Source: Pseudomonadota bacterium (GTDB taxonomy: Bacteria > Pseudomonadota > Alphaproteobacteria > SHVZ01). Taken from it: DNA of 64,000 nucleotides. Each line of letters starts with the position of its first letter. Positions within the stretch are counted from its first letter, which is position 1. The stretch spans positions 1 through 64,000 of the forward strand of contig JACQAG010000001.1 of assembly GCA_016195085.1 (NCBI GenBank). The letters are read 5' to 3'. Shown in pieces: positions 166-20,881 of this stretch. A program made the translations under genes and the position numbers. A model generated the notes under the pieces. That model ran no database searches and had not been told where the DNA came from. It saw only the letters and a program-made list of their open reading frames with translations.

Positions 166-1245
166 CTAGTGATCGAGGAAGATTCCGGCATTTGGCGGCC
201 ATATGACCGCTATTGGCTCGCCCCGGGCGAAGTCGGTCCGTTGCTCGTTTGCCAGCTCCTGTACGATGACGGTGCCTTCGGTGGATAGCGCGACGAAATG
301 CTTGATGGATCCTCCGGTGACGAGAGTGTCCTGCAAGGTACCCTTCAACGCATTGACGGTCCCGTTTACCTGACTGAGCTTGGCCAGTCGCATGCTCTCG
401 GGTCGGATCATGAGATGCCCCCGCCCCGAGGAAGCTCCCCGCATGACCTGAACGGTCGTGCCGTCGCTGAGCTTTGCAAACCCTGCAGCCACCATCTCGG
501 CTGGAATCAAGGTCGAGCTCCCGATGAATTCAGCGGCAAATTTGGAGCAAGGGGCGAAATACAAGTCATGAGGAGTTGCGAGCTGCTCGACCGATCCGCC
601 GTTCATGAGCAGGATCCGATCGGACATGTTGAGCGCTTCCTCTTGATCGTGCGTCACATAGATCATCGTGATGCCGAGCGCAGAATGAAGACGCCTGATT
701 TCCAGCTGCATCTGCTCGCGCAGGTTCTTGTCGAGAGCACCTAGCGGCTCGTCCATTAGGATAAGCATCGGGTTGTAGACGATACATCGTGCGAGAGCGA
801 CTCGTTGCTGCTGCCCGCCGGACAGCTCTTTCGGCTTGCGGTCCGCAACGTTGGGAAGACGGACCAGCTCGAGCACCTTCATTACGCGATTTCGGATCTC
901 TGCTTTAGGTACGCGCCGAACCTCCAGCGGAAACGCCACGTTCTGAAAGATGCTCATATGCGGCATCAACGCGTAGCTCTGGAACACCATCCCGATCCCA
1001 CGCTTGGAGGGGGGCATCTCCGTCACCTCGCGGCCATCGATCCAAACCCGTCCTTCGCTGACCCCGGTCATCCCTGCAATCATGTTGAGCAAGGTCGTCT
1101 TGCCGGAGCCGCTTGGGCCAAGCAGCGTCAGGAATTCGGCCTTCTGCACATCGAGGCTGATCGGGTGAAGGGCCTGAATCGAGCCGTAAGCTTTGCTTAC
1201 GTTCTCGAGACGCACCATCGGATTTTTGTGATCGCCGATTGACAT
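166..1245 (-). CDS. Spermidine/putrescine-type ABC transporter ATPase (PotA-like)
   Basis: Cytoplasmic ATPase that would power the importer made by the three genes upstream of it on the same strand. It is 359 residues long, normal for the PotA/FbpC class. Walker A GPSGSGKTT is at about residues 43-51, the signature LSGGQQQ at 141-147 and Walker B LILMDEP at 161-167. A C-terminal TOBE-type domain (about 270-359) includes the family segment MIRPESMRL. The reading frame stays open further upstream, but a start at 1245 is chosen because it shares one base with the stop of the upstream permease (TGATG), a typical translational coupling. The substrate is inferred only from family: polyamine, opine or amino-acid derivative. 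Confidence 0.9.
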   Translation of the reverse strand: MSIGDHKNPMVRLENVSKAYGSIQALHPISLDVQKAEFLTLLGPSGSGKTTLLNMIAGMTGVSEGRVWIDGREVTEMPPSKRGIGMVFQSYALMPHMSIFQNVAFPLEVRRVPKAEIRNRVMKVLELVRLPNVADRKPKELSGGQQQRVALARCIVYNPMLILMDEPLGALDKNLREQMQLEIRRLHSALGITMIYVTHDQEEALNMSDRILLMNGGSVEQLATPHDLYFAPCSKFAAEFIGSSTLIPAEMVAAGFAKLSDGTTVQVMRGASSGRGHLMIRPESMRLAKLSQVNGTVNALKGTLQDTLVTGGSIKHFVALSTEGTVIVQELANEQRTDFARGEPIAVIWPPNAGIFLDH

Positions 1246-2033
1246 CAGGTGGAGCTCTGACGGCTGAGGCCCGCGACCATGAGACAGACGATCGCCGAAA
1301 GTGCCGTTAGCATGGTGGAGATAGCGGCTAGGATAGCTGACACCTCCCACTGGATTGAGGAAAACATCTTGACCGGAAGGGTGACGGTATCGGCCCGGGC
1401 CACGAACCACGATATAACTACTTCGTCGAACGAGATCAGAAAGGCGAAAAGTCCGCCGGCCAAAATCGAGGCCCGGATGAGCGGCAGCGTCACGCGACGG
1501 AACACATAAAAGCGACCGGCACCCATGATTGTTGCGGCCGTCTCCAGAGCCGGATCGACCTGTCGGAGCCCAGCCATTGCCGTGACGATGACGAAGGGCA
1601 GGGTTGCGACCGTGTGCCCAAGGACGAGACGAATATCGCCGTCGCGAAGCCCGATTCGGGCAAAATAGATGTACAGAGCAAGCGCGATTACGACCGCCGG
1701 CACCATTATCGGGCTAAGTAAGAACAGCGCCAGGTAGCGCTTGCCTGGGAACTGCCCTCGAGACAGTGCATAGGCTGCGGGGACACCGACCAAGATCGAA
1801 AGCAACGTCGTCCAGCATGCGACGCGGAGGCTGACGATCGTGGCGTTCACCCAGCCAGGCTCGGTGAAAAAGCGAGTGAAAAGCTTGATCCCGAAGGACG
1901 CTGGCGGGAACACGATCTCGTTCACGTTTCCGAATCCGATGGGAATAACGATGAGGCTCGGAAGCAGGAGAAAAGCGAGAATCGTCCAAGCGGCGACGCC
2001 GACGGCACGGGTGTGGGATGAACCGTGGAGCAT
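1245..2033 (-). CDS. ABC transporter permease (PotC-like)
   Basis: Inner-membrane permease of 262 residues with about six hydrophobic segments, beginning with the helix AAWTILAFLLLPSL near the N terminus. The cytoplasmic EAA loop that docks onto the ATPase is visible as EtAAtIMGAGrfyvF in mid-protein. The start at 2033 overlaps the stop of the other permease (ATGA), so the pair is translationally coupled and probably forms the heterodimeric channel of a PotABCD-like importer. A longer open frame up to 2147 lies inside the upstream permease gene and is rejected as start. Confidence 0.9.
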   Translation of the reverse strand: MLHGSSHTRAVGVAAWTILAFLLLPSLIVIPIGFGNVNEIVFPPASFGIKLFTRFFTEPGWVNATIVSLRVACWTTLLSILVGVPAAYALSRGQFPGKRYLALFLLSPIMVPAVVIALALYIYFARIGLRDGDIRLVLGHTVATLPFVIVTAMAGLRQVDPALETAATIMGAGRFYVFRRVTLPLIRASILAGGLFAFLISFDEVVISWFVARADTVTLPVKMFSSIQWEVSAILAAISTMLTALSAIVCLMVAGLSRQSST

Positions 2034-2896
2034 CAGCGCTCCTCTCCGCCAAGAAGGGCAGATCCGCCCGGAACGAGCGAGAGGAAAATAGCCGCGGTCG
2101 CCGCGGCTCCCATCAGGATGACGGACAGCGCGGATGCCATTGGCCAATTGATCAGCTCACGCGCATAGAAATCCACGAGATTCGCCAACATCATGTCCTG
2201 CCTGCCTCCCAGCAGCGCCGGTACCACGTAGAAGCCGAGCGACAGGATCATGACGAGAAGGACGCCGGCCATGACACCGGGGAGGCTCAGTGGGAGCGTG
2301 ACACGGCAAAAGATGCGCCACTTGCTGGCCCCCAAAATCGCTGCCGCGAGCCGCAGCTCTCGGGGTTGGTTCAGCAGATTGGTCAGGATCGGGAGAACCA
2401 TGAACGGCACGAGAAAGTGACTCATGCCAACGACCACACCGACGCGATTGAACAGGAGCTTAACCGGGGGGAGGCCGAGCCATCCTATCGCGGTGTTGAC
2501 GAGACCGGATTGTCCGAGAAGAACGGTGAAGGCGAAGCTCTTGACTAGAACACTGGTCCAGAAGGGCACGAGAACGAGGACCATAAGGAGAGCCCGGCGA
2601 TGCGCAGGCTGCTGAGCCATGTAGTAGGCGAGAGGGTATGCCAGGAACAACGCGAAGCAGGTCGCCAGTAACGTAATCTCGATCGTCGTCCAACCTACCC
2701 GCAGGAAGAGTGCAGCCGAGGCTATCTTCGCGTATGATTCGAGAGAGAATGAGGTCGCAGCTTCCGACGTCAGGCTCTGCACCAAAACGGCCCCGAGCGG
2801 GACCGCGAACACTGCCAGCATGAGTATCGTTGCCGGCGCGGCATAGAGGGCGATCCAGATCGCCTGTCGCCGCTCCAGCGCGCTCATGCGTGCCAT
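2033..2896 (-). CDS. ABC transporter permease (PotB-like)
   Basis: Inner-membrane permease of 287 residues, first of the two channel subunits. It opens with a hydrophobic helix (WIALYAAPATILMLAVF) and has about six membrane segments. The EAA loop is seen as LAAAILGASKWRIF, and the helix after it as SLPGVMAGVLLVMIL. It follows the binding-protein gene with a 95-base gap and overlaps the next permease by four bases. Start ATG at 2896 is used; an in-frame ATG three codons later is the only close alternative. Gene order binding protein, PotB, PotC, PotA is standard for this transporter class. Confidence 0.88.
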   Translation of the reverse strand: MARMSALERRQAIWIALYAAPATILMLAVFAVPLGAVLVQSLTSEAATSFSLESYAKIASAALFLRVGWTTIEITLLATCFALFLAYPLAYYMAQQPAHRRALLMVLVLVPFWTSVLVKSFAFTVLLGQSGLVNTAIGWLGLPPVKLLFNRVGVVVGMSHFLVPFMVLPILTNLLNQPRELRLAAAILGASKWRIFCRVTLPLSLPGVMAGVLLVMILSLGFYVVPALLGGRQDMMLANLVDFYARELINWPMASALSVILMGAAATAAIFLSLVPGGSALLGGEER

Positions 2897-2991
2897 ATCA
2901 GGGTAAGGTCCGGACCTTGCTACATCGCGCTAGTTCGTCGCTCTTTGCATGTTGTGTATGAGAGCGCACAAACATCGTCCCGACCCCCTTG

Positions 2992-4065
2992 TCAGACCAG
3001 AAGCCACTCCTTGAAACGCTTCGTTAGGTCGTCGATGTGAGTATCCCACCAACCCGGATTGATGAAGAGATTATTGGAATCGCCGACGTCAGGCATCCAT
3101 TTCCGCGCTTCCGGGGCCACCTTGGCCAGGGCATCGGGGTAGCAGGGGGCATCGCCTGAGAGGTTGGCCAGCTCGACTTGGCGTTCAGGCTTTGCGATGT
3201 AAGCGCAGAGGCGCATCGCCGCCTCTTTATTCCGCGTTCCTTTGACGACCCCAGCCCATCCTACGCCAAGGATATTCTGCTGGAACGAATAGCCCATCGG
3301 CACCCCCGCGGCCTGCATGTCTTTGACGCGGGTGGTATAGGTGAAAGTGAAGTCCGTCTCGTTGGTTTGAATGAGCGAAACCGTCTGAGCGGTCTGCGCG
3401 ATCCAGTGACTGACCGAGGGCTTGATGCGATCGAGCGCCTTGAACGCCCTCTCTACGTCGCAGGGATATACATCCTTCGGGGCTACACCGTCTCCCATCA
3501 ATGCGATCTCGAGGGTATCGCTGACCCGGTTGCGGAGACCGCGGCGCCCCGGAAAGCCGGCGACATTCCAAAATTCCGGCCAGGTCTTGGGCACCTTGCC
3601 GCCAAGGCGGTTGGTCGGAAACGCTATCCCACCGGCAGAGATGCTCCCACCAACGGCGTAGTCATGCTTTGCCAGAGGAACAACGCCGGTCCGATCCACA
3701 ATCCGCTCGTCGATCGGTTCCAACAGACCCATGCGCGTTCCCGCCGGCACCCAGGCGTCAAGGAGGTCCACTACGTCCCATTCGACGTCACCAGATTGAA
3801 CCTGAGCTCGAATCTTTGCGAGGTCTGGACCAGGGACCGCCAACACCTCGATGCCGGTGTCGCGGGTGAACGGCCCATAGATCGCCTTTTGTTTGGCGTC
3901 GCCCATGGCGCCGCCGAAGTTGACGACCACCACCCGACCGGCGCCGCGAGCGCGACCGGGAACGATGACGAATGGCATTGCCAATGTTGCGGCGGCTGCG
4001 CCGGATGCCAGAACTTCGCGACGAGAGATTCTGCGGACCAAGGAAGTAGCGGATTTCTTAGGCAT
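2992..4065 (-). CDS. Periplasmic binding protein, spermidine/putrescine (PotD-like) family, Tat signal
   Basis: Extracytoplasmic solute-binding protein of 357 residues that would capture the substrate for the ABC importer. The N terminus has a twin-arginine export signal: RRISRREVLASG followed by a hydrophobic stretch and a likely cleavage after RARGA. The mature part begins VVVVNFGGAMGD, typical of the PotD/opine-binding (SBP_bac) fold. The start at 4065 is supported by a GGGAGG ribosome-binding site seven bases upstream; the frame remains open to 4374, but that stretch runs into the regulator gene. Two to four copies of the cluster operator motif lie just upstream. The ligand cannot be deduced from sequence. 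Confidence 0.9.
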   Translation of the reverse strand: MPKKSATSLVRRISRREVLASGAAAATLAMPFVIVPGRARGAGRVVVVNFGGAMGDAKQKAIYGPFTRDTGIEVLAVPGPDLAKIRAQVQSGDVEWDVVDLLDAWVPAGTRMGLLEPIDERIVDRTGVVPLAKHDYAVGGSISAGGIAFPTNRLGGKVPKTWPEFWNVAGFPGRRGLRNRVSDTLEIALMGDGVAPKDVYPCDVERAFKALDRIKPSVSHWIAQTAQTVSLIQTNETDFTFTYTTRVKDMQAAGVPMGYSFQQNILGVGWAGVVKGTRNKEAAMRLCAYIAKPERQVELANLSGDAPCYPDALAKVAPEARKWMPDVGDSNNLFINPGWWDTHIDDLTKRFKEWLLV

Positions 4066-4078
4066 GCTCGTTCCTCCC

Positions 4079-4100
4079 GGTAATCTGCCGGCAACCTGCC
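4079..4100. promoter_or_regulatory. Two operator-like motifs in the binding-protein leader
   Basis: GGTAATCTGCC (4079-4089) and GGCAACCTGCC (4090-4100) match the 11-base motif GSCAwTYTGSC that recurs around the AsnC-type regulator gene. They lie just upstream of the ribosome-binding site of the binding-protein gene. Their centres are 11 bases apart, one helical turn. Assignment to the neighbouring AsnC regulator is inference from position and recurrence. Confidence 0.5.
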
Positions 4101-4152
4101 CGTCCGAATTGACGGATTCTACAGTCCAGGCGACGCTGAAAATACCGATTCC

Positions 4153-4184
4153 GGCATTTAGCTCATAAATGGCGGCATTTTGCC
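4153..4184. promoter_or_regulatory. Two operator-like motifs upstream of the transporter operon
   Basis: GGCATTTAGCT (4153-4163) and GGCATTTTGCC (4174-4184) have centres 21 bases apart, two helical turns. They fill most of the gap between the regulator stop (4188) and the binding-protein start (4065). The second is extended by flanking bases to the near-palindrome CGGCATTTTGCCG. Phased, imperfect palindromes are how Lrp/AsnC octamers usually contact DNA, so these are the best candidates for the control site of the importer. Confidence 0.55.
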
Positions 4185-4187
4185 GGA

Positions 4188-4691
4188 CTAGCCCGCCTCG
4201 CCCCGATCGATCCCCGCAGCCTGCAGAGACGCCAAGGAGGCGGTCTCGGTATAACTGCGGTCGAAATTTGTCGCTAGAACCACCACCGACTTCATGCGCT
4301 CGACACCGGGTATTTCCGAGATGGTCTCGAGAACCGCAGCCATATCCTCCAGCTGAGGCACTTTGACGCGACACATCAGCTCATAGTCGCCATTGATTGT
4401 CTGACAGAGCTTGATCTCGGGAAATGCCTTTAAGTGCTCGGTCACGGCGCGCTGACGGCGGTGTAAAACCGAGATCAGCAGCACCGCCTCCGCATACTGT
4501 TCGAACGGGTCCCGCTTGAGCACGACTGAATAGCCGCTGATCGTGCCGTTCTTCTGTAGACGTGCGAGCCGCTCCTGAACAGTCGTGCGGGCGATGCTGA
4601 GCTTCTTCGCAAGGTTAGTCGTCGACTCCCGCGCGTTAGCCTGGAGGAGAGAAATCAGCCTCCGATCGACGTCGTCGTTGGCCTTGGTGAT
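4188..4691 (-). CDS. Lrp/AsnC-family transcriptional regulator with apparent ATC start
   Basis: Regulator of the surrounding catabolic genes, by position. A standard-start reading begins only at a GTG (4523) and would lose the whole DNA-binding half. Reading the same frame upstream gives a complete AsnC helix-turn-helix with no stop: DDVDRRLISLLQANAR, then LAKKLSIARTTVQERLARLQ, then GTISGYSVVL, running straight into the RAM ligand-binding domain. The full protein would be about 167 residues, the normal family length. No ATG, GTG or TTG is in frame between the upstream stop (4713-4715) and the helix-turn-helix. The best start is ATC at 4691, seven bases after AGGAG. Either initiation is non-canonical or the start codon is mutated or misread. 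Confidence 0.75.
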   Translation of the reverse strand: MTKANDDVDRRLISLLQANARESTTNLAKKLSIARTTVQERLARLQKNGTISGYSVVLKRDPFEQYAEAVLLISVLHRRQRAVTEHLKAFPEIKLCQTINGDYELMCRVKVPQLEDMAAVLETISEIPGVERMKSVVVLATNFDRSYTETASLASLQAAGIDRGEAG

Positions 4692-4735
4692 TGCCGGTCT
4701 CCTGCGGCGAGTTTATGTCGCCGCTCATCGCCTGG

Positions 4736-4741
4736 TATACT
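4736..4741 (+). promoter_or_regulatory. Possible -10 element for the catabolic operon
   Basis: TATACT at 4736-4741 is a good -10 hexamer in the divergent intergenic region, about 190 bases before the deacylase start. The matching -35 position (about 4713-4718, TTATGT) is weak, which would fit a promoter that needs an activator. The phased operator motifs at 4760-4811 lie just downstream of it. Confidence 0.3.
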
Positions 4742-4759
4742 CGGCTCGAGCGCCAGGCC

Positions 4760-4811
4760 GCCATTCTGGCGCCGTCTCCGGCATTTTGGCAACTATATGC
4801 GGCAATCTGCC
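4760..4811. promoter_or_regulatory. Three phased operator-like motifs between the divergent operons
   Basis: GCCATTCTGGC (4760-4770), GGCATTTTGGC (4780-4790) and GGCAATCTGCC (4801-4811) have centres at 4765, 4785 and 4806, so spacings of 20 and 21 bases. They are variants of the motif found upstream of the importer genes. Their position between the regulator and the deacylase operon suggests joint control of both directions, including autoregulation. The regulator assignment is inference. Confidence 0.6.
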
Positions 4812-4934
4812 GATCCCGCCCCGCGACCCGGCAAGTCGGCCCCTTCAAGGCGTCAGCCCGATTGCTTCCAATCCAACTACGGAGAGACGAATGCATGGGC
4901 TAACGTCGAACGCGTCCCTTCCGGAGGTCGTCGC

Positions 4935-6083
4935 ATGAATAGGACCGAGCATTTGTTCGGGCTCACTGATGAGCTCCCCTCATCCGGCAAAGTCACGGGC
5001 TATGCCAAAATTCCGTTCTCGTCCGATCTTTCTGCATACGGATTCATCCCGCTCCCGATCACGGTTGTTGCAGAAGGGGATGGGCCGACCGTCCTGCTGC
5101 TTGCAGGCTCCTATGGTGATGAATTCGACAGCCAGATCGCTCTCGGTCGAGTGGCCCGTAACCTCGATCCGCGCAATTTGAACGGTCGGGTCATCATCGT
5201 GCCGATGGCGAACGAACCGGCAGCGCGCGCTAGCACACGCAACTCGCCAATCGACGGCCTCAATCTCAATCGCAGTTATCCTGGAGACGTGCGTGGTACG
5301 CCGACCCGCGTAATCGCTGACTACTTAGAGCGGCAGCTAATGCCGATTAGCGACATCGTGCTCGATCTGCACAGCGACGCGCGCTCGATCCGGTATCTGC
5401 CCTGCGCGACCATGATTTATCACGCGGATCCGGATGTTCGCCTTGAGCGCCTTGCTTTGGCGATGTCGTTCGACGCGCCGTCGGTACTAGTTTTCCATAG
5501 CTTCGAGGAGCGCAACTCCTCCGGAGCCGCTAAGCGCGCTGGCGCTGTCCGCATCGCGACGGAGATCGGAGGGCCGAAGCCTGTCGAGATGACGTTCGCC
5601 GGGATCATGAATGTCCTTCGATGGGCCGGCGTTGTCGAAGACAACGGCAGGAGCGCGGGACCGAAAAGGCCGGTGGTCCGCGTAGTTCGCCAAGACAGCG
5701 ATTTTGTTTATGCGCTCCTCGATGGTCTGTTCGAGCCCACAATAGAGCTGGGCGACGAAGTTTCTTCTGGCACTACAGCGGGCTTTATCCACGATCCATC
5801 TCGTCCCTTAGCTGAGCCCTATGAAGTCAAGATCACCGCACCCTCGGGTACCGTCGTGTGCACCCGTGGGTCGGGGCCAGCGCGACGGGGGGATTGTCTG
5901 ATTCACATGGCAACGGCGCCTGACGCCGAGCTGGCAAGCGAGATCGCTGCGGCTTCCACATTCAGGTGGCCGAAAGAGCGGCAGAGGGGCCGGCCGCAAG
6001 TGACGCAGGAACCATCTACGAAGGCTGTTCCTAAAGCCCCAAATAAGAAGCCGCGATCTCGGCCGAGAGTCCGGCGTAGATGA
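4935..6083 (+). CDS. Succinylglutamate desuccinylase/aspartoacylase-family deacylase (DoeB-like), zinc ligand altered
   Basis: Predicted cytoplasmic amidohydrolase of the M14 AstE/AspA family, which removes an acyl group from an N-acylated amino acid. It is 382 residues, started at 4935 behind GGAGG (4923-4927). The canonical HGDE zinc motif reads YGDE at residues 60-63, so the first histidine ligand is tyrosine (codon TAT). The glutamate (63), the NxNR substrate motif (N110-R113) and the second zinc histidine in DLHS (H146) are present. The C-terminal tail is Pro/Lys/Arg-rich. It is the first gene of the plus-strand operon and overlaps the next gene by four bases. Activity on an N-acyl amino acid is a family-level guess. 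Confidence 0.75.
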   Translation: MNRTEHLFGLTDELPSSGKVTGYAKIPFSSDLSAYGFIPLPITVVAEGDGPTVLLLAGSYGDEFDSQIALGRVARNLDPRNLNGRVIIVPMANEPAARASTRNSPIDGLNLNRSYPGDVRGTPTRVIADYLERQLMPISDIVLDLHSDARSIRYLPCATMIYHADPDVRLERLALAMSFDAPSVLVFHSFEERNSSGAAKRAGAVRIATEIGGPKPVEMTFAGIMNVLRWAGVVEDNGRSAGPKRPVVRVVRQDSDFVYALLDGLFEPTIELGDEVSSGTTAGFIHDPSRPLAEPYEVKITAPSGTVVCTRGSGPARRGDCLIHMATAPDAELASEIAAASTFRWPKERQRGRPQVTQEPSTKAVPKAPNKKPRSRPRVRRR

Positions 6084-6847
6084 TCTGTGAACGCGCCATC
6101 CTCATCACCGGCGCGACGTCGGGGATCGGTGCGGCCGTCGCAAGGCGTCTCGCAGCCCCCAATGTCGGACTCCTTCTTCAGGGAGGGGGGACGTCATCGG
6201 AGAGTGCTTATCGTCTGGGGACCGTCCGCACAGTGTGCGAACGGTCGGGCGCGCACTGCGCGGCCGCATTGGGCGATCTAGCCGAGGACGGTCGGGGACG
6301 CGCGAGCGTGGATGCCGCCTTGCAGAATTTCGGACGCTTGGACCAAATTATCCATGCGGCCGGTTACCCCAATAAAACGCGGCTTGGCGAGCTGACGCGA
6401 TCCGACTTCGACCGTTGCATCGCGGTCATGCCTGGCGCGTTCTTGGAGATCGTATCGGCGGCAATGCCGAGTCTCGCTCAATCTGCTATCGGGCGCGTCG
6501 TCGCCGTCAGCTCCTTCATCGCCCACAAATTTGAAAGCGCGACTTTGGCGCCAGCATCCGCCGCTGCTAAGGCCGCCATGGAGGCGCTGGTCAAGTGCTT
6601 TGCACTTCAGCTTGCACCGACCGGCACCACCGTCAACGCCATCCTTCCTGGGTTCACCAAGAAAGACCCGGGAAAACTCGGGTCTATGACCGCGGCTGGT
6701 TGGCAGCAGGCGGCGCAGCGCACCCCCACCGGCCGCTTGAACGAAACGGACGAGATCGCCGCCGCCATTAGCTTTCTCTTATCGCAAGAGGCCCGGCAAA
6801 TCACCGGGACAACTTTGACCATCGATGGCGGTCTGACGCTCGGTTGA
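6080..6847 (+). CDS. Short-chain dehydrogenase/reductase lacking the catalytic tyrosine
   Basis: Rossmann-fold SDR of 255 residues. It has the cofactor loop GATSGIG (11-17), the mid-chain HAAG at the usual NNAG place, and the C-terminal TGTTLTIDGG typical of classical SDRs. The active-site serines are present (VSS, 143-145) and so is the lysine (K164), but the tyrosine four residues before that lysine is serine (S160, codon TCC), and no tyrosine occurs between the two motifs. It may act as a non-redox SDR, use another acid, or be inactive. It is translationally coupled to the deacylase gene. Confidence 0.8.
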   Translation: MICERAILITGATSGIGAAVARRLAAPNVGLLLQGGGTSSESAYRLGTVRTVCERSGAHCAAALGDLAEDGRGRASVDAALQNFGRLDQIIHAAGYPNKTRLGELTRSDFDRCIAVMPGAFLEIVSAAMPSLAQSAIGRVVAVSSFIAHKFESATLAPASAAAKAAMEALVKCFALQLAPTGTTVNAILPGFTKKDPGKLGSMTAAGWQQAAQRTPTGRLNETDEIAAAISFLLSQEARQITGTTLTIDGGLTLG

Positions 6848-6879
6848 GACTTGTCGCCGCCCCATGGAAAGGATGCCGC

Positions 6880-8115
6880 ATGAGTCAGGTCATGAAGAAC
6901 TACCGCTGGGCCGATCGCGCCCAAGCGACGGTAGCGCCAGCTGCTCCCGCTGGATTTCGCGGAAACAGCATCCAGCTCGGCGGCGGATACGGATTTCCTG
7001 AAGAATTGCCAGATATTGTCGCTGAGGCGATTGCAGCGGCGAAAGATCGCGACGAGGGCCTGCAATACGGCCCCCTTTACGGATTGGACGATCTACGCGA
7101 CGAGATAGCTCGTTATCTCCAGCAAGACGGGATCGTGGCCGGCCGCGAAAACATTCTCGTCGTAAACGGCGCCAAGCACGGATTGGACCTGGCTTGCCGG
7201 GTCTTCATCGATAGGGGCGATACGGTCATCGTAACAGCTCCGACCTATTTGACGGCCGTCTCGATCCTCAAAGCTGCCGAGGCGACGTTCCTGTCGGTCT
7301 CGCAAGATGAGAGCGGCCTGAACGCGGACGAACTTGAGCTGAAGTTGAAGCTCAGGCAGGACATCGGCGCGCCCATGCCCAAGCTTCTGTTCGACGTACC
7401 GGATTTTCATAACCCAACAGGCGTCACGATGTCTGCGGATCGCAGGAAGCGGTTGGTGGAGCTGGCCGAACGCTACGATTTTGTCATCGTCGAGGACGAC
7501 CCCTACCGTCGCATCCGATTCGAGGGTTCGCCTGTACCGCCCATCAAGACGTTCGATCGGACGGGTTCAGTCGTCGGGCTGGGGACGGTCTCCAAGATAT
7601 TGGCCCCCGGATTGCGCATTGGCTGGGTGAATGCGACACCGGACATTGTGCGGCGGATGGCGGCCCACAAGTCCGACCATGGCACCTGTCCCCTGCTTCA
7701 GAGGATCGTCGCCCTGCTCTTTCACAACGGGAAGGTCGACCAGCACATCGCCGCACTCTCGAAGGTTCTACGCGGCCACCGCGATGCGATGGTAGCGGCG
7801 ATCCACCATCATCTGCCGGACGCGAGAGTTCGTGTGCCAAATGGGGGCTATTTCCTTTGGGTCGAGCTGCCTAAGGGCGTTGATGCCGAGGAATTGGTGA
7901 GGCGCGCGGCAAAGCTGGGCGTCACCGTGTTCTCCGGCAAGCTCTCATTCGCCCAGTCACCGTCGACAAACTTTCTCCGCCTCGCCTTCAGCTACAGCAA
8001 GCCGGAGCAGATTGCGGCCGGCGTCGAGCGGCTGGGCAATGCGTATGCCGAGCTAATGGCCGAGATCACAAGTGGACCCATCCGAGCCGACGACGTTGTC
8101 AGCAAGGTGGCCTAG
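6880..8115 (+). CDS. PLP-dependent aminotransferase (fold type I, class I/II)
   Basis: Transaminase of 411 residues resembling the 2-aminoadipate/MocR-linked branch of class I/II aminotransferases. All key residues are seen: substrate loop GPLYGLDDLR, asparagine in FHNPTG, aspartate in EDDPY, PLP lysine in TVSKILAPGLRIGW, and the carboxylate-binding arginine in FLRLAFSY. There is no N-terminal GntR domain, so this is an enzyme and not a MocR regulator. Start at 6880 follows GGAAAGGA; the frame is open from 6844 but that stretch overlaps the SDR stop. It lies 32 bases after the SDR. A role in taking nitrogen off, or putting it onto, the pathway intermediate is inferred. Confidence 0.88.
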   Translation: MSQVMKNYRWADRAQATVAPAAPAGFRGNSIQLGGGYGFPEELPDIVAEAIAAAKDRDEGLQYGPLYGLDDLRDEIARYLQQDGIVAGRENILVVNGAKHGLDLACRVFIDRGDTVIVTAPTYLTAVSILKAAEATFLSVSQDESGLNADELELKLKLRQDIGAPMPKLLFDVPDFHNPTGVTMSADRRKRLVELAERYDFVIVEDDPYRRIRFEGSPVPPIKTFDRTGSVVGLGTVSKILAPGLRIGWVNATPDIVRRMAAHKSDHGTCPLLQRIVALLFHNGKVDQHIAALSKVLRGHRDAMVAAIHHHLPDARVRVPNGGYFLWVELPKGVDAEELVRRAAKLGVTVFSGKLSFAQSPSTNFLRLAFSYSKPEQIAAGVERLGNAYAELMAEITSGPIRADDVVSKVA

Positions 8116-8189
8116 TCCCCGACGGGCCCGTTCGCGGGCGTGCAACTCGTGACAGGCGAGACAGCGATACAGGAAGGATGATCACAAAC

Positions 8190-9311
8190 ATGCTGAGCCT
8201 TATCGATCTCGGCAGCGACACGGCAACCAAACCTACGCGCGAGATGATCGCGTTCATGATGGGCTGCGCTGTCGGCGACGATCAAAAGCAAGAAGATCCG
8301 ACCGTCAATGCGCTTCAAGATCAGGTCGCGGACCTCTTGGGCAAGGAAGCCTCGATCTTCCTGCCGTCGGCAACCATGGCGAATGAGATCGCACTCAAGG
8401 TTCATACCCGCCATGGCGACGAGGTTATTCTGGACGCTTCGTCACACTATGTGACTTCAGAGGCCGGTGGGCCGGCATTTCTTTCCGGCGTCATGCTTCA
8501 CGGAGTGGTGGGCGCCCGCGGCATCTTTACGGGCGATCAAGTCGAAGCCGGCATCCGGAGAGACGACCTGCATTGCCCTCGCACCAGCCTCGTTTGCGTC
8601 GAGCAAACGACGAATCGCGGTGGGGGCGCCGTCTGGTCTCTCGATCAGCTCAAATCCGTTGCCGAGACTGCGCACAGGCTTGGGCTGGCCACACACATGG
8701 ATGGCTCTCGGCTCATAAACGCGATGGTTGCATCCGGACAATCGGCGGCAGCCCATGCGAACGGATATGATTCAGTGACGCTCTGTCTCACCAAAGGGCT
8801 CGGCTGCCCGATCGGAGCCCTATTGGCGGGCAACCGGCCACTCATCAAGGAAGCTCGGCGTTACAAGCATCTGTTCGGCGGCGCTATGCGCCAGGCCGGT
8901 ATCGTCGCCGGCGCTGGGCTTTATGCGCTGCGCCACAACGTCAATCGGCTGGCCGATGACCATGCCAATGCGAAGCTGCTTGCCACGCTGTTGTCTGATA
9001 TTCCGGGGATACGCGTAAATCCGGACGACATCCGGACGAACATCGTCTTCTTCGATGTAGGCGATGCGGGGCTGACAGCCCAGCAACTGGTCGAGCGGTT
9101 GCGCCAGTTCGGTGTACGGATGGGTGCGTGGCCGAATGAGACGCTCGTCCGCGCGGTAACGCATCTTGACGTGACATCGAAGCAGATCGAGATCGCCGCG
9201 AGCCGAATTCGTGAGATCGTTACCGCGGCTACGCGGGACATCCGGGTTGCATCCGAAACAATTCACGCGGGCGAGCACCGAGCCTCGGCGCGCCAACGGC
9301 GATCCTTCTAG
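8190..9311 (+). CDS. Threonine aldolase-family PLP enzyme (beta-eliminating lyase fold)
   Basis: Enzyme of the L-threonine/L-allo-threonine aldolase family (373 residues from the 8190 start), which splits beta-hydroxy amino acids into glycine and an aldehyde. Motifs seen are IDLGSDTATKPT at the N terminus, the histidine stacking on PLP (SSHYVTSEAGGPA), the PLP-binding aspartate and arginine in HMDGSRLINA, and the Schiff-base lysine in LTKGLGCPIGALL. An ATG also exists at 8178, but AGGAAGG abuts that codon, so 8190 is preferred. It lies 74 bases after the aminotransferase in the same operon. It implies a beta-hydroxy amino acid as intermediate or substrate. Confidence 0.85.
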   Translation: MLSLIDLGSDTATKPTREMIAFMMGCAVGDDQKQEDPTVNALQDQVADLLGKEASIFLPSATMANEIALKVHTRHGDEVILDASSHYVTSEAGGPAFLSGVMLHGVVGARGIFTGDQVEAGIRRDDLHCPRTSLVCVEQTTNRGGGAVWSLDQLKSVAETAHRLGLATHMDGSRLINAMVASGQSAAAHANGYDSVTLCLTKGLGCPIGALLAGNRPLIKEARRYKHLFGGAMRQAGIVAGAGLYALRHNVNRLADDHANAKLLATLLSDIPGIRVNPDDIRTNIVFFDVGDAGLTAQQLVERLRQFGVRMGAWPNETLVRAVTHLDVTSKQIEIAASRIREIVTAATRDIRVASETIHAGEHRASARQRRSF

Positions 9312-9342
9312 CCGTAGTTGAGCACCACTAGGAGTCTGGGCA

Positions 9343-10266
9343 ATGCGAGCAAAGTTTCTCGATTGCGGTTCTCCGCAATACAAGCTGTGGCAGGACGCAA
9401 ATAGGGATTTCGGCGTTTCTGTGGACGTAAACACAGGCGCATTCGATCCTGCCGACATTCCTAGGATGTTGGAAGGGTACGACGTGTGTATCGACGACCA
9501 CACGCGTTTCACGCTTGAAATCCTCGCGCAGTGCCGCTCGATCAGGCATTTTGTCTACTTCGGAACGGGGGCAGCCAGCATCCTCGACCTTGCCCAAGCA
9601 AAACGCCAAGGCATCGAGGTTCATACGATCAGGAACTACGGTGACACCACCGTGGCCGAGTTGACAGTCGGCTTGATCCTTGCCGCAGCTCGGCAGATCG
9701 CGCAGCAGCACGAGGTGATGCGACAGGGCGGATGGAAAAAGCTCCAAGGCATCGAATTGCGACGTAAGCGCATTGGAATTGTCGGCTTTGGCGGCATAGG
9801 GCGGGAGGTGGCGAGAATCTGCGCAGGCATCGGGCTTGAGGTCGTCGTCTGGAACCGCTCTCCCCTTTCCGAGCCCGGCGTGCGAACCGTAGCACTCGAT
9901 GAACTGCTTAGGACATCCGACGTCATCAGCCTTCACCTCGCATTGAACGACGAGACGCGCCTGTTTCTGAACCGGGATCGTCTTTCCTCTATGAAGACAG
10001 GGGCGCTACTGGTCAATACGGCCTGCGGCGCGCTCATCGACGAAGTTGCTCTGGTCGATGCCCTTCATGCGGGCTCGCTGGGTCATGCGGCTCTTGACGT
10101 CTTCCAGACCGAGCCGTTGCCCGAGAGTCATCCCCTCCGTACCGCTCCAAACGTCACGCTCACTGCGCATTGTGGGTTCTGGACCGAAACGTCGACGATC
10201 AACCAGGTCCGACTGGTTCTTGAGATAGTTAAGGAACTCCTCGCCGAAAGCGCGGCTGCTGATTAG
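9343..10266 (+). CDS. D-2-hydroxyacid dehydrogenase family protein, catalytic Arg replaced by Cys
   Basis: NAD(P)-dependent oxidoreductase of 307 residues, related to glyoxylate/hydroxypyruvate and phosphoglycerate dehydrogenases. The Rossmann motif GFGGIG follows the RIGIV strand at about residues 143-152. The catalytic histidine is in TAHCGFW and the glutamate in DVFQTEP. The family motif NTARG reads NTACG (225-229), so the substrate-binding arginine is cysteine (C228, codon TGC). It lies 31 bases after the aldolase-like gene. By family it would interconvert a 2-keto acid and a D-2-hydroxy acid; the substitution makes normal activity uncertain. Confidence 0.8.
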   Translation: MRAKFLDCGSPQYKLWQDANRDFGVSVDVNTGAFDPADIPRMLEGYDVCIDDHTRFTLEILAQCRSIRHFVYFGTGAASILDLAQAKRQGIEVHTIRNYGDTTVAELTVGLILAAARQIAQQHEVMRQGGWKKLQGIELRRKRIGIVGFGGIGREVARICAGIGLEVVVWNRSPLSEPGVRTVALDELLRTSDVISLHLALNDETRLFLNRDRLSSMKTGALLVNTACGALIDEVALVDALHAGSLGHAALDVFQTEPLPESHPLRTAPNVTLTAHCGFWTETSTINQVRLVLEIVKELLAESAAAD

Positions 10267-10314
10267 GTAACAGTCTAGCGGATCTTTAGGCACTGCGCCG
10301 GGACCCGGCAGTTC

Positions 10315-11616
10315 ATGACCCTGCACGTCACCGTCCTGGGAGCCGGCGTTGTTGGCGTCTGCACGGCGCTCGCGTTGCGCCATACCGGCTTTGAGGTCAG
10401 CCTGATCGATCCAGGCGAGCCAGGGGGAGAGCAGGCCGCGAGCTTTGGCAATGCGGGCTGGTTAAGCCCGGCTTCGGTCGTGCCGATCTCGATGCCGGGG
10501 CTCTGGCGGAAGGTGCCGCGGATACTTTTGGATCCGCACGGGCCTCTTACTATCCGTTGGACATCGCTCCCCCGCCTCCTCCCGTGGCTCCTAAGGTTTC
10601 TCTATGCCGGGGCCACTGTGCGTCGGGTCGAGGCGACGGCCCGGGCGCTGCGGCCACTGCTGGAGCCAGCGGCAGGCTTGCATGCTGAGCTGGCCGCCGC
10701 AGCGGACGTACCCAACATGATCCGACGCTGGGGTCTTCTTTATATCTACCCGACACGTCGAGACTATGAGAATGACGCGTTGGCCTGGCGCTTGCGCCGA
10801 CAAAATGGTTTGACCTGGACGGAGCTGGACAAGGCCGCTCTCCACCAAAAACTACCTTCCCTGGTGGATCGATACGGCTTCGGGGCGTTCGTTCAGGCTG
10901 GCGCCCATTGCACGGATCCCGGTGGTTATGTAGCGGCTCTTGCCAGGCATGCTGTGGCTCTCGGCGTTCGCCGCATCCGAGCGCGCGCGACCGGCTTCCA
11001 AATTGAGGCTACCCGCCTCAGGGCGGTGGCGACGGAAGACGCCCCGATCGTCTGTGATCGGGCGGTCGTTTCCGCGGGTATTTGGTCTCAAACACTCGCT
11101 CGTGCAGCCGGAGATTCCATACCGTTGGTGAGCGAGCGCGGCTATCACGTCGTCATTTCCGACCCAGAGGCGATACCCGATATTCCGGTGCAGCCAAGCG
11201 ACACGAAGATGGGAAACACCGCCATGGTTCATGGCCTCCGCGCCGCGGGCCAGGTTGAGTTTTCCAGTCCCGATGCGCTGCCGAACTGGCATCGCGCGCG
11301 CGTTCTGTTAGACCACGTGCTTACGACCTACAAGGGCCTCCCGAGCGTGGTTCCAGAGGCCAGAATTTCCCGGTGGATGGGCCACCGCCCTTCAACTCCG
11401 GACGGCCTGCCGGTGATTGGCGAGGCGTCTAAGAGCAGTGACATCGTACATGCTTTCGGTCACGGCCATGTCGGCCTAGCAAGCGCACCTGTCACTGCGA
11501 GTCTTGTTGCCGCAATGATTAGAGGGGCGACACCGGAGACGAAACTCACTCCGTATTCGGCCCAACGATTTAGAGGTTGGTGGCCTCGACCGGCGGCGTC
11601 TTTGCGTACCTATTAA
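10315..11616 (+). CDS. FAD-dependent D-amino-acid dehydrogenase (DadA-like)
   Basis: Flavoprotein of the DAO/DadA family, 433 residues, close to the usual 415-430. The dinucleotide-binding motif VTVLGAGVVGV is at the N terminus. The family segments FGNAGWLSPAS, HGLRAAGQVEF and the C-terminal GHGHVGLASAP loop that contacts FAD are all present. Members oxidise amino or imino acids to the imine, passing electrons to the respiratory chain. Its place before a DapB homologue suggests that an imine could be the next intermediate. The ribosome-binding site is weak (GGGA about 16 bases upstream). Confidence 0.85.
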   Translation: MTLHVTVLGAGVVGVCTALALRHTGFEVSLIDPGEPGGEQAASFGNAGWLSPASVVPISMPGLWRKVPRILLDPHGPLTIRWTSLPRLLPWLLRFLYAGATVRRVEATARALRPLLEPAAGLHAELAAAADVPNMIRRWGLLYIYPTRRDYENDALAWRLRRQNGLTWTELDKAALHQKLPSLVDRYGFGAFVQAGAHCTDPGGYVAALARHAVALGVRRIRARATGFQIEATRLRAVATEDAPIVCDRAVVSAGIWSQTLARAAGDSIPLVSERGYHVVISDPEAIPDIPVQPSDTKMGNTAMVHGLRAAGQVEFSSPDALPNWHRARVLLDHVLTTYKGLPSVVPEARISRWMGHRPSTPDGLPVIGEASKSSDIVHAFGHGHVGLASAPVTASLVAAMIRGATPETKLTPYSAQRFRGWWPRPAASLRTY

Positions 11617-11630
11617 CTTCGAGTATCGCT

Positions 11631-12401
11631 ATGGACAAAGGAATTGGCATTGCCGGCATTACCGGACGAATGGGCTCCTTGCTTACTGAGGAGGTTGCTG
11701 CTGCTGGTCTGCTGCTAGCGGGCGGAATTAACCGCGGCGGCGCCTCGCGCTCTGGCGATACCCACTTGTTCGTCAATATCGCAGCCCTTGCCGACGCGTC
11801 GGATGTGGTGATCGATTTCACGCATGCCAGCGTTGTAGATGCACACGCTAAGGCGCTTTCTACCGCAGGGACTGCCTGGGTTCTTGGCACTACAGGCTTA
11901 ACAGCAGCGGAGGAAAGCGTCGTCTCCGACGCCGCAAAGTGCATCGCCGTGGTCTACGCTCCCAATTTCACTCCCGGCGTCAACCTCGTGCTGGCTCTAG
12001 CCGAACAGATGTCCGCCGCACTTCCCGCTGAAAAGTACGATGCTGAGATCGTGGAATTGCATCACCGCCAGAAGGTTGACGCTCCCTCCGGTACGGCAAT
12101 TGGAATCGGCCAGGCGGTGGCACGCGGGCGTGGAGTTGATCTGGAAGACGTCATGGAGTGCGGGCGGAAAGGTCAATTCGGCGCTCGCGCACCGGGAGCC
12201 ATTGGGTTTGCCGCCCTGCGCGGCGGTCAAGTCGTCGGCGAGCACACGCTCCTATTCGCCTCCGCCACGGAGCACATTGCCATTACCCACCGTGCGTTCG
12301 ACCGACGCGCTTTCGCTGCCGGCGCCGTACACGCTGCCGTGTGGATCGAAACACGGCCTCCCGGCTTGTATTCCATGATGGATGTCTTGGGCATACGGTG
12401 A
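11631..12401 (+). CDS. dapB: 4-hydroxy-tetrahydrodipicolinate reductase homologue (DapB)
   Basis: NAD(P)H reductase of 256 residues with full DapB features: N-terminal cofactor motif IGIAGITGRMG, the strand VVIDFTHAS, GTTGLTAAE, APNFTPGVN, and the catalytic stretch ELHHRQKVDAPSGTA that holds the active-site histidine and lysine. Its place at the end of a catabolic operon, 14 bases after the DadA-like gene and outside any lysine-biosynthesis cluster, suggests it may reduce a cyclic imine other than tetrahydrodipicolinate; that is inference. The frame is open upstream to 11577 but overlaps the previous gene, so ATG 11631 is used. Confidence 0.85.
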   Translation: MDKGIGIAGITGRMGSLLTEEVAAAGLLLAGGINRGGASRSGDTHLFVNIAALADASDVVIDFTHASVVDAHAKALSTAGTAWVLGTTGLTAAEESVVSDAAKCIAVVYAPNFTPGVNLVLALAEQMSAALPAEKYDAEIVELHHRQKVDAPSGTAIGIGQAVARGRGVDLEDVMECGRKGQFGARAPGAIGFAALRGGQVVGEHTLLFASATEHIAITHRAFDRRAFAAGAVHAAVWIETRPPGLYSMMDVLGIR

Positions 12402-12416
12402 TCGACGAAGGTCCCC

Positions 12417-12740
12417 TGGCACTTTTCGGACCTCGCGCGATGTCCGACTTGAGTCCCTGATGCGCACCAAAGCGGAAGTCTGCCAACGCCTACGGATTCA
12501 TGAGTTCATGCCCCAGTGTGATGATTCCGAAGTTCGTCCACGAACTTCGGGATCTGAATCACCCTCGATTCAATAGATGAGCGGGACACTAGAGCGGAAT
12601 CCGTTCAGCTGGAATCACTTTTTCTTCGTCATTGCCGGGCTTGACCCGGCAATCCATCGTGCGATCGCAAGATGGACCCACGGATCAAGTCCGTGGGTGA
12701 CGATAAGAGGATGGTTCCACCTAACCGGAACGCGCTCTAG
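12417..12740. repeat. 324-bp dispersed repeat, copy 1
   Basis: Matches 20558-20881 without a gap; I count 13 mismatches, all in the first 190 bases, with the last 130 identical. It contains stem-loops at 12527-12550 (CCGAAGTTCG / CGAACTTCGG), 12633-12651 (TGCCGGG / CCCGGCA) and 12677-12698 (ACCCACGG / CCGTGGGT). The right half (12589-12740) begins CTAGAGCG and ends CGCTCTAG with imperfect inverted termini, like a MITE. No protein is encoded. It fills the gap between the dapB homologue and the TVP38 gene; 12741-12780 shows nothing recognisable. Confidence 0.85.
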
Positions 12741-20499: not shown

Positions 20500-20558
20500 T
20501 TACTCTGCCGATTTATCGCCTCGGTCTGACCTGGAGTTCGCCTCTCAATGTCGGCTAT
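20496..20558 (-). pseudogene. 3' remnant of the interrupted PagL-type lipid A deacylase gene
   Basis: Immediately left of repeat copy 2, the minus strand reads IADIERRTPGQTEAINRQSN and then a stop at 20496-20498. The pattern resembles the family C-terminal motif, SNA..GRRNPGQE-like, which carries the catalytic glutamate. It directly continues, across the repeat, the gene whose 5' part ends in HHIS at 20880. The frame is in the correct orientation and its stop overlaps the convergent LysR stop, as a true gene end might. Homology is judged by eye from a short stretch. Confidence 0.5.
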
Positions 20559-20881
20559 GGCACTCTTCGGACCTCGGGCGATGTCCGACTTGAGTCCCTG
20601 ATGCGCACCAAAGCGGAAGTCCGCCGACGCCTACGGATTCATGAGTTCACGCCCTCGTGTGATGAGTCCGAAGTTCGCCCACGAACTTCGGAATCCGAAT
20701 CACCCTCGATTCAATAGATGAGCGGGACACTGGAGCGGAATCCGTTCGGCTGGAATCACTTTTTCTTCGTCATTGCCGGGCTTGACCCGGCAATCCATCG
20801 TGCGATCGCAAGATGGACCCACGGATCAAGTCCGTGGGTGACGATAAGAGGATGGTTCCACCTAACCGGAACGCGCTCTAG
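20558..20881. repeat. 324-bp dispersed repeat, copy 2
   Basis: Second copy of the element at 12417-12740, same orientation, same length, about 96% identical. It has the same three stem-loops and the same CGCTCTAG right end; the left CTAG of the inner MITE-like part has decayed to CTGG (20730-20733). It lies inside a PagL-type gene, splitting it. No clear target-site duplication is visible; CTA occurs at both edges. Confidence 0.85.

Follow-up and report, generated by a model that had tools for sequence, protein, structure and literature searches.

The first 64,000 nucleotides of an alphaproteobacterial contig (GTDB lineage SHVZ01; assembly GCA_016195085.1, contig JACQAG010000001.1; hereafter the window) open with an island at positions 166–12,401 that comprises a potABCD-type importer, an asnC regulator gene and seven enzyme genes. 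On balance, we favour reading this island as a horizontally acquired, patchwork regulon for the catabolism of an amino-acid derivative, in which an M14-family protein, a short-chain dehydrogenase/reductase (SDR) and a D-2-hydroxyacid dehydrogenase (HADH) homologue have changed in function or are decaying. Its parts are of known kinds and their combination is new; we found no description of this gene combination in the literature. A new finding is a two-part operator-like element shared by both sides of asnC, which an initial annotation of the sequence did not contain. The island illustrates how genes that look like one operon for a seven-enzyme pathway can instead be pieced together from recurring modules that answer to a single regulatory switch, some of the enzymes having moved beyond their textbook chemistry.

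The gene set, order and strands given by the initial annotation were all borne out by open reading frames and by profile matches to Pfam and NCBIfam models with cut-offs. None of the 12 genes contains an internal stop or frameshift, and neighbouring genes are separated by short gaps or joined by 4-base overlaps. The GC content is 58–62% across the first 14 kb and about 64–71% beyond 16 kb. GC at third codon positions (GC3) is uniformly low in all 12 island genes (63–74%), compared with 77–89% in the genes to the right. On the left, the island ends with the assembly itself, as base 1 of the window is base 1 of its contig (C1) in a 4.8-Mb assembly that is 96% complete. On the right, it is bordered by a 300-bp dispersed repeat (12,417–12,716) with a 96% identical copy at 20,558–20,857. 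The contrast in GC and GC3 supports the island being one acquired block, and the nature of its two borders fits this as well. The two copies of the repeat are direct and bracket an 8.1-kb segment. Across the genome, 14 places show a full or partial match to a 186-base stretch of the border repeat; two lie close to the starts of contigs (C2 and C11). We found no tRNA gene in positions 1–30,000 of the window, and the contig end gave no match to plasmids.

The regulator gene asnC (4,188–4,691, minus strand; PF13404 HTH_AsnC and PF01037 AsnC_trans_reg) is flanked by two intergenic regions that hold a common two-part palindromic element, CCGGCATTTWG-N11-CGGCANNNTGCCG. Element A lies between asnC and potD (4,151–4,185; CCGGCATTTAG-N11-CGGCATTTTGCCG), and element B, in which both halves recur with an identical 22-bp spacing, lies between asnC and the M14 gene (4,778–4,812). 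The composite element occurs exactly twice in the window, with none expected from shuffles, a count that is descriptive and not a blind test because the pattern was derived from the two sites themselves. It is present without mismatch at no other place in the assembly. The simple palindrome alone is common, at 104 places in the genome, so the information lies in the pairing and the constant distance between the halves. In an unbiased comparison of the two asnC-flanking regions, the best 38-base match reached 25, compared with 19–24 in 40 shuffled pairs.

Multi-site operators of Lrp/AsnC-type regulators are expected to look like such paired elements. The placement of the elements suits control of potDBCA on one side and of asnC with the enzyme operon on the other. 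Because the exact composite element is confined to these two sites of the assembly, the importer and the enzymes probably form one AsnC regulon, in which AsnC would bind the paired elements flanking its own gene and thereby control both sides jointly. The shared operator lends support to the AsnC-controlled unit that the initial annotation had proposed to join the importer to amino-acid enzymes, and offers a direct handle on what AsnC senses, hence on the purpose of the island. asnC itself has no suitably placed ATG, GTG or TTG; the helix–turn–helix starts right after an ATC codon preceded by AGGAGA, a good Shine–Dalgarno sequence, and this ATC is, apparently, either a rare start or a lesion.

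The importer genes lie on the minus strand and encode an ATP-binding cassette (ABC) ATPase of the PotA type with a TOBE domain (166–1,245; PF00005 and PF08402, ABC_tran and TOBE_2), a PotC-type permease (1,245–2,033; PF00528, BPD_transp_1; below the cut-off of NCBIfam PotC), a PotB-type permease (2,033–2,896; PF00528, BPD_transp_1) and a solute-binding protein with a twin-arginine-like signal (2,992–4,065; SBP_bac_8). These are the gene types of the PotABCD-type importer named initially. The binding protein appears to be of the amino-acid type and not of the polyamine type, which lends support to the amino-acid import proposed there. Its best PDB chains are 4eq7, the sensors of γ-aminobutyric acid (GABA) 9d57 and 6dgv, 6hly (agropine) and 5l9s (mannopine), whereas polyamine proteins named PotD or putrescine-binding score far weaker. 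Most matches are GABA, agropine or mannopine proteins. The best chain, 4eq7, was deposited under a polyamine title, although 4eq7 and 4euo appear to represent the GABA protein Atu4243.

Relatives of the whole importer occur on A. vitis and Neorhizobium plasmids, with 43–57% identity across all four subunits, where they adjoin an aminotransferase, RidA and two DapA-family genes. The ATPase shares 54–57% identity with its counterparts in importers of A. vitis, Neorhizobium and Paraburkholderia, and the PotB-type permease 45–51% with those of the same plasmid importers. A more distant relative in Caballeronia stands beside an M24 peptidase, flavin adenine dinucleotide (FAD) oxidases and a glutaminase. 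The binding-protein group and the neighbours of the importer relatives point to an amino-acid derivative or opine-like zwitterion as the likely class of imported substrate. With the opine and GABA uptake loci (agropine, mannopine, Atu4243) and the A. vitis and Neorhizobium plasmid importers, the island has its binding-protein group and its whole importer in common, but those loci differ in LysR regulation, DapA-family lyases and other enzymes.

Among the seven enzymes, all encoded on the plus strand, three lack hallmark residues. The M14 protein, of the AstE/AspA type and DoeB-like (4,935–6,083; AstE_AspA_cat), most likely starts at the ATG at 4,935, which has GGAGG upstream and replaces an earlier start at 4,797. 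The first His of its HxxE...H metal site is Tyr (Y106 counted from 4,797, Y60 from 4,935), a position held by His in 54 of 54 relatives. In the AstE/AspA family, this His is a zinc ligand. Three further invariant sites are changed, the end branch is the longest in its tree (2.03 compared with a median of 0.09), and the protein scores 208.2 bits with the NCBIfam DoeB model, whose cut-off is 402.7. Six more DoeB-like M14 matches (32–42%) lie elsewhere in the genome, on contigs C3, C4, C6, C8, C47 and C84, and family relatives of this genome carry up to eleven, indicating an expanded family.

The SDR (6,080–6,847; SDR profile) has SAAAK in place of YxxxK and thus misses the catalytic Tyr. We considered recent decay for this loss and rejected it: since the nearest homologue (48% identity, S. 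meliloti) also lacks the Tyr, its absence is best taken as a trait of the subfamily. In the HADH homologue (9,343–10,266; 2-Hacid_dh), position 228 is Cys, whereas Arg occupies it in 23 of 23 relatives; the Glu and His of the triad are kept. The catalytic triad of D-2-hydroxyacid dehydrogenases is Arg/Glu/His (PMC12328707). Because the M14 protein and the HADH homologue are without residues needed for their chemistry, deacylation and 2-hydroxyacid oxidation should not be taken for granted on this locus. Together with the SDR, they would not be doing their textbook reactions, being either neofunctionalised or in decay.

Decay might also extend to the island as a whole, if a formerly functional unit were now under weak selection and losing active sites as well as the start codon of asnC. 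H106Y, R228C, the ATC start and the long M14 branch fit such a course, and so do borders formed by a contig edge and a dispersed repeat; yet 12 genes without a frameshift or stop, unremarkable branch rates of DapB and the aminotransferase, and intact operators argue otherwise, and we regard island-wide decay as unlikely. The patchwork regulon with three altered enzymes faces difficulties of its own. No close relative carries the island, against which selection on it could be gauged. The open frames and intact operators speak against advanced decay, Tyr could still ligate zinc in the M14 protein, and the Cys variant of HADH could have a new role. Single-base errors of a draft assembly could, moreover, create the appearance of H106Y, of R228C or of an ATC start.

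The other enzymes appear intact. The fold-type I aminotransferase (6,880–8,115, start corrected to about 6,880; LysN, multiple-substrate or MppQ-like, class I) keeps its pyridoxal phosphate (PLP) site and evolves at an unremarkable branch rate. Relatives with solved structures are MppQ and broad enzymes of the 2-aminoadipate type. The GntG/L-allo-threonine aldolase-type PLP lyase (P0008; 8,178–9,311; Beta_elim_lyase) scores 357.8 bits with the NCBIfam GntG model, above the cut-off of 230, and holds HMDGSRL and TKGLG, of the PLP-lysine region. A second GntG aldolase, 53% identical to it, is present in the same genome on contig C12 (G000, L232:8085-9871), with an SDR that has a normal YxxxK immediately after it. 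The DadA-like FAD amino-acid oxidoreductase (10,315–11,616; DAO profile) has relatives that adjoin thiamine pyrophosphate-dependent enzymes and racemases in several loci.

We infer from sequence which enzymes are active and how their steps may be ordered. In the patchwork regulon, the ABC importer, with its binding protein of the GABA/opine group, would take in a zwitterionic amino-acid derivative, and the working catalysts would be the aminotransferase, the GntG-type aldolase, the DadA-like oxidase and DapB. The aldolase may split a beta-hydroxy amino acid into glycine and an aldehyde in a retro-aldol reaction, the oxidase may convert a D- or cyclic amino acid to an imine or 2-oxo acid, and DapB may reduce a cyclic imine.

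DapB (P0011; 11,631–12,401, from a corrected ATG start at 11,631) is fully canonical in sequence. It scores 208.8 bits with TIGR00036 (cut-off 122), keeps the HHxxKxDAPSGTA motif as HHRQKVDAPSGTA, has none of 24 invariant columns changed and shows an unremarkable branch rate. It groups with DapBs of a family taken for Acetobacteraceae, one of which is the housekeeping copy after dnaK–dnaJ, and the grouping also includes two diverged tandem copies from an oxidase operon in another genome (G065). DapB might stand outside the pathway, as an acquired or spare lysine/peptidoglycan enzyme copy carried on the island, which would be compatible with the patchwork regulon for the other genes. The canonical motif, the clade shared with a dnaK-dnaJ-dapB housekeeping enzyme of an Acetobacteraceae-like genome and the status of P0011 as the sole DapB match in the assembly favour this. 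That P0011 is the only DapB of the genome is not firm, however: contig C53 ends inside dnaK and dnaJ has no match in the assembly, so that a gap between contigs probably hides the housekeeping dapB. The occurrence of diverged DapB pairs in an oxidase operon also counts against a mere spare copy, which we consider possible but the less probable case.

That operon (L142:3731-10503, from an alphaproteobacterium) holds an ABC importer ATPase, an Asp/Glu racemase-like protein and FAD oxidoreductases, together with the tandem pair of diverged DapB homologues. Like the island, it combines FAD amino-acid oxidoreductases with homologues of DapB and with genes of an ABC importer, but it has no match to the island aldolase, aminotransferase, HADH or AsnC, and its DapBs are diverged. 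DapB in a degradative operon, which the initial annotation had called unusual in combination with a threonine aldolase, recurs once, as this tandem pair, although the island DapB itself groups with housekeeping enzymes. A bolder proposal is that DapB was recruited to catabolism: the oxidase would make a hydroxy-imine from an imported, hydroxylated cyclic amino acid, and DapB would reductively deoxygenate it as it does with hydroxytetrahydrodipicolinate, with M14, SDR and HADH in new roles without their textbook residues. We think this very improbable. If true, the island would encode a route, so far not described, by which a cyclic hydroxy-amino acid is degraded under AsnC control, and a real DapB step would extend DapB chemistry to catabolism.

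The initial annotation had proposed looking for the same gene set in other genomes. We searched for the whole set by tblastn against plasmids with seven island proteins, by an aminotransferase scan of one genome per species in 84,980 species, which depends on an exact seed match at the peptide level and may overlook relatives that have diverged, and class-wide in 289–385 genomes. None of these searches found the complete set in another genome. Within the 289–385 class genomes, the best HADH, DAO, aldolase and aminotransferase matches do not co-locate. No matching operon turned up among the neighbours of M14 relatives in genomes of the same family, where open reading frames were picked crudely, a procedure that is unreliable in high-GC DNA.

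Sub-modules recur apart instead, namely aminotransferase with M14, HADH with the DadA-like oxidase, and the importer. HADH and DAO are adjacent in P. cervicalis and in a second genome (G363), with a PotD/B/C-like importer upstream in the latter. The aminotransferase branches as sister to 29 other sequences that form a clade, and is 49–55% identical to 28 loci of the genome scan, the next matches being at most 41% identical; 25 of the 28 have an M14 neighbour and none an aldolase, HADH, DAO or DapB. The window M14 comes from a different part of the M14 tree than these partners, its exact place being unsure given its long branch. Because the partners fall in different parts of the tree, the pairing of an aminotransferase with an M14 protein seems to have arisen on two occasions, and this repetition hints at a real functional link.

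These results bear on the initial proposal that the seven enzymes work one after another as a complete pathway of their own, with deacylation, oxidation, DapB-type reduction and aldol cleavage in line. Short gaps, 4-base overlaps, a single regulator, shared operators and enzymes plausible for amino-acid chemistry are what such a pathway would show. The linear scheme is nevertheless not supported, as these searches found the set in no other genome, three enzymes are without hallmark residues, DapB keeps an unchanged motif and an acyl-related partner gene is absent from the cluster; we hold it to be distinctly unlikely, somewhat more so than island-wide decay.

The patchwork regulon also recalls the doe/eut clusters for ectoine and 5-hydroxyectoine, which share with it a DoeB-like M14 protein, an aminotransferase, an AsnC regulator and a dedicated importer; asnC is reported in 494 of 539 ectoine-consumer clusters (PMC5924519). 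The island differs in that its M14 protein falls below the DoeB cut-off and has lost a zinc ligand, and its importer is not of the EhuB type. No M24 match, as in the ectoine hydrolase DoeA/EutD, was found among the island proteins scanned. With a DoeB score below the cut-off and no DoeA/EutD match, the likeness to ectoine clusters is architectural only.

A further, marine cluster, conserved in Ruegeria, Leisingera and uncultured metagenome-assembled genomes, carries an orthologous aminotransferase (49–57%) beside M14, as in the island. Unlike the island, it has an EhuB-like binding protein, a DoeA-like M24 protein, an EutA-like protein, a choline-dehydrogenase-like GMC enzyme and a GntR regulator, is without threonine aldolase, HADH, DAO and DapB, and its M14 proteins form a separate clade. 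In L105:1-13279, L094, L088, L096 and others, the aminotransferase and DoeB-like M14 genes are divergent from those for the DoeA-like M24, EutA-like, EhuB-like importer, GMC and GntR proteins. This marine cluster appears to encode a catabolic pathway of an ectoine- or betaine-like kind that has not been described; some examples add a GbdR-like regulator and a pyrroline/piperideine-carboxylate reductase.

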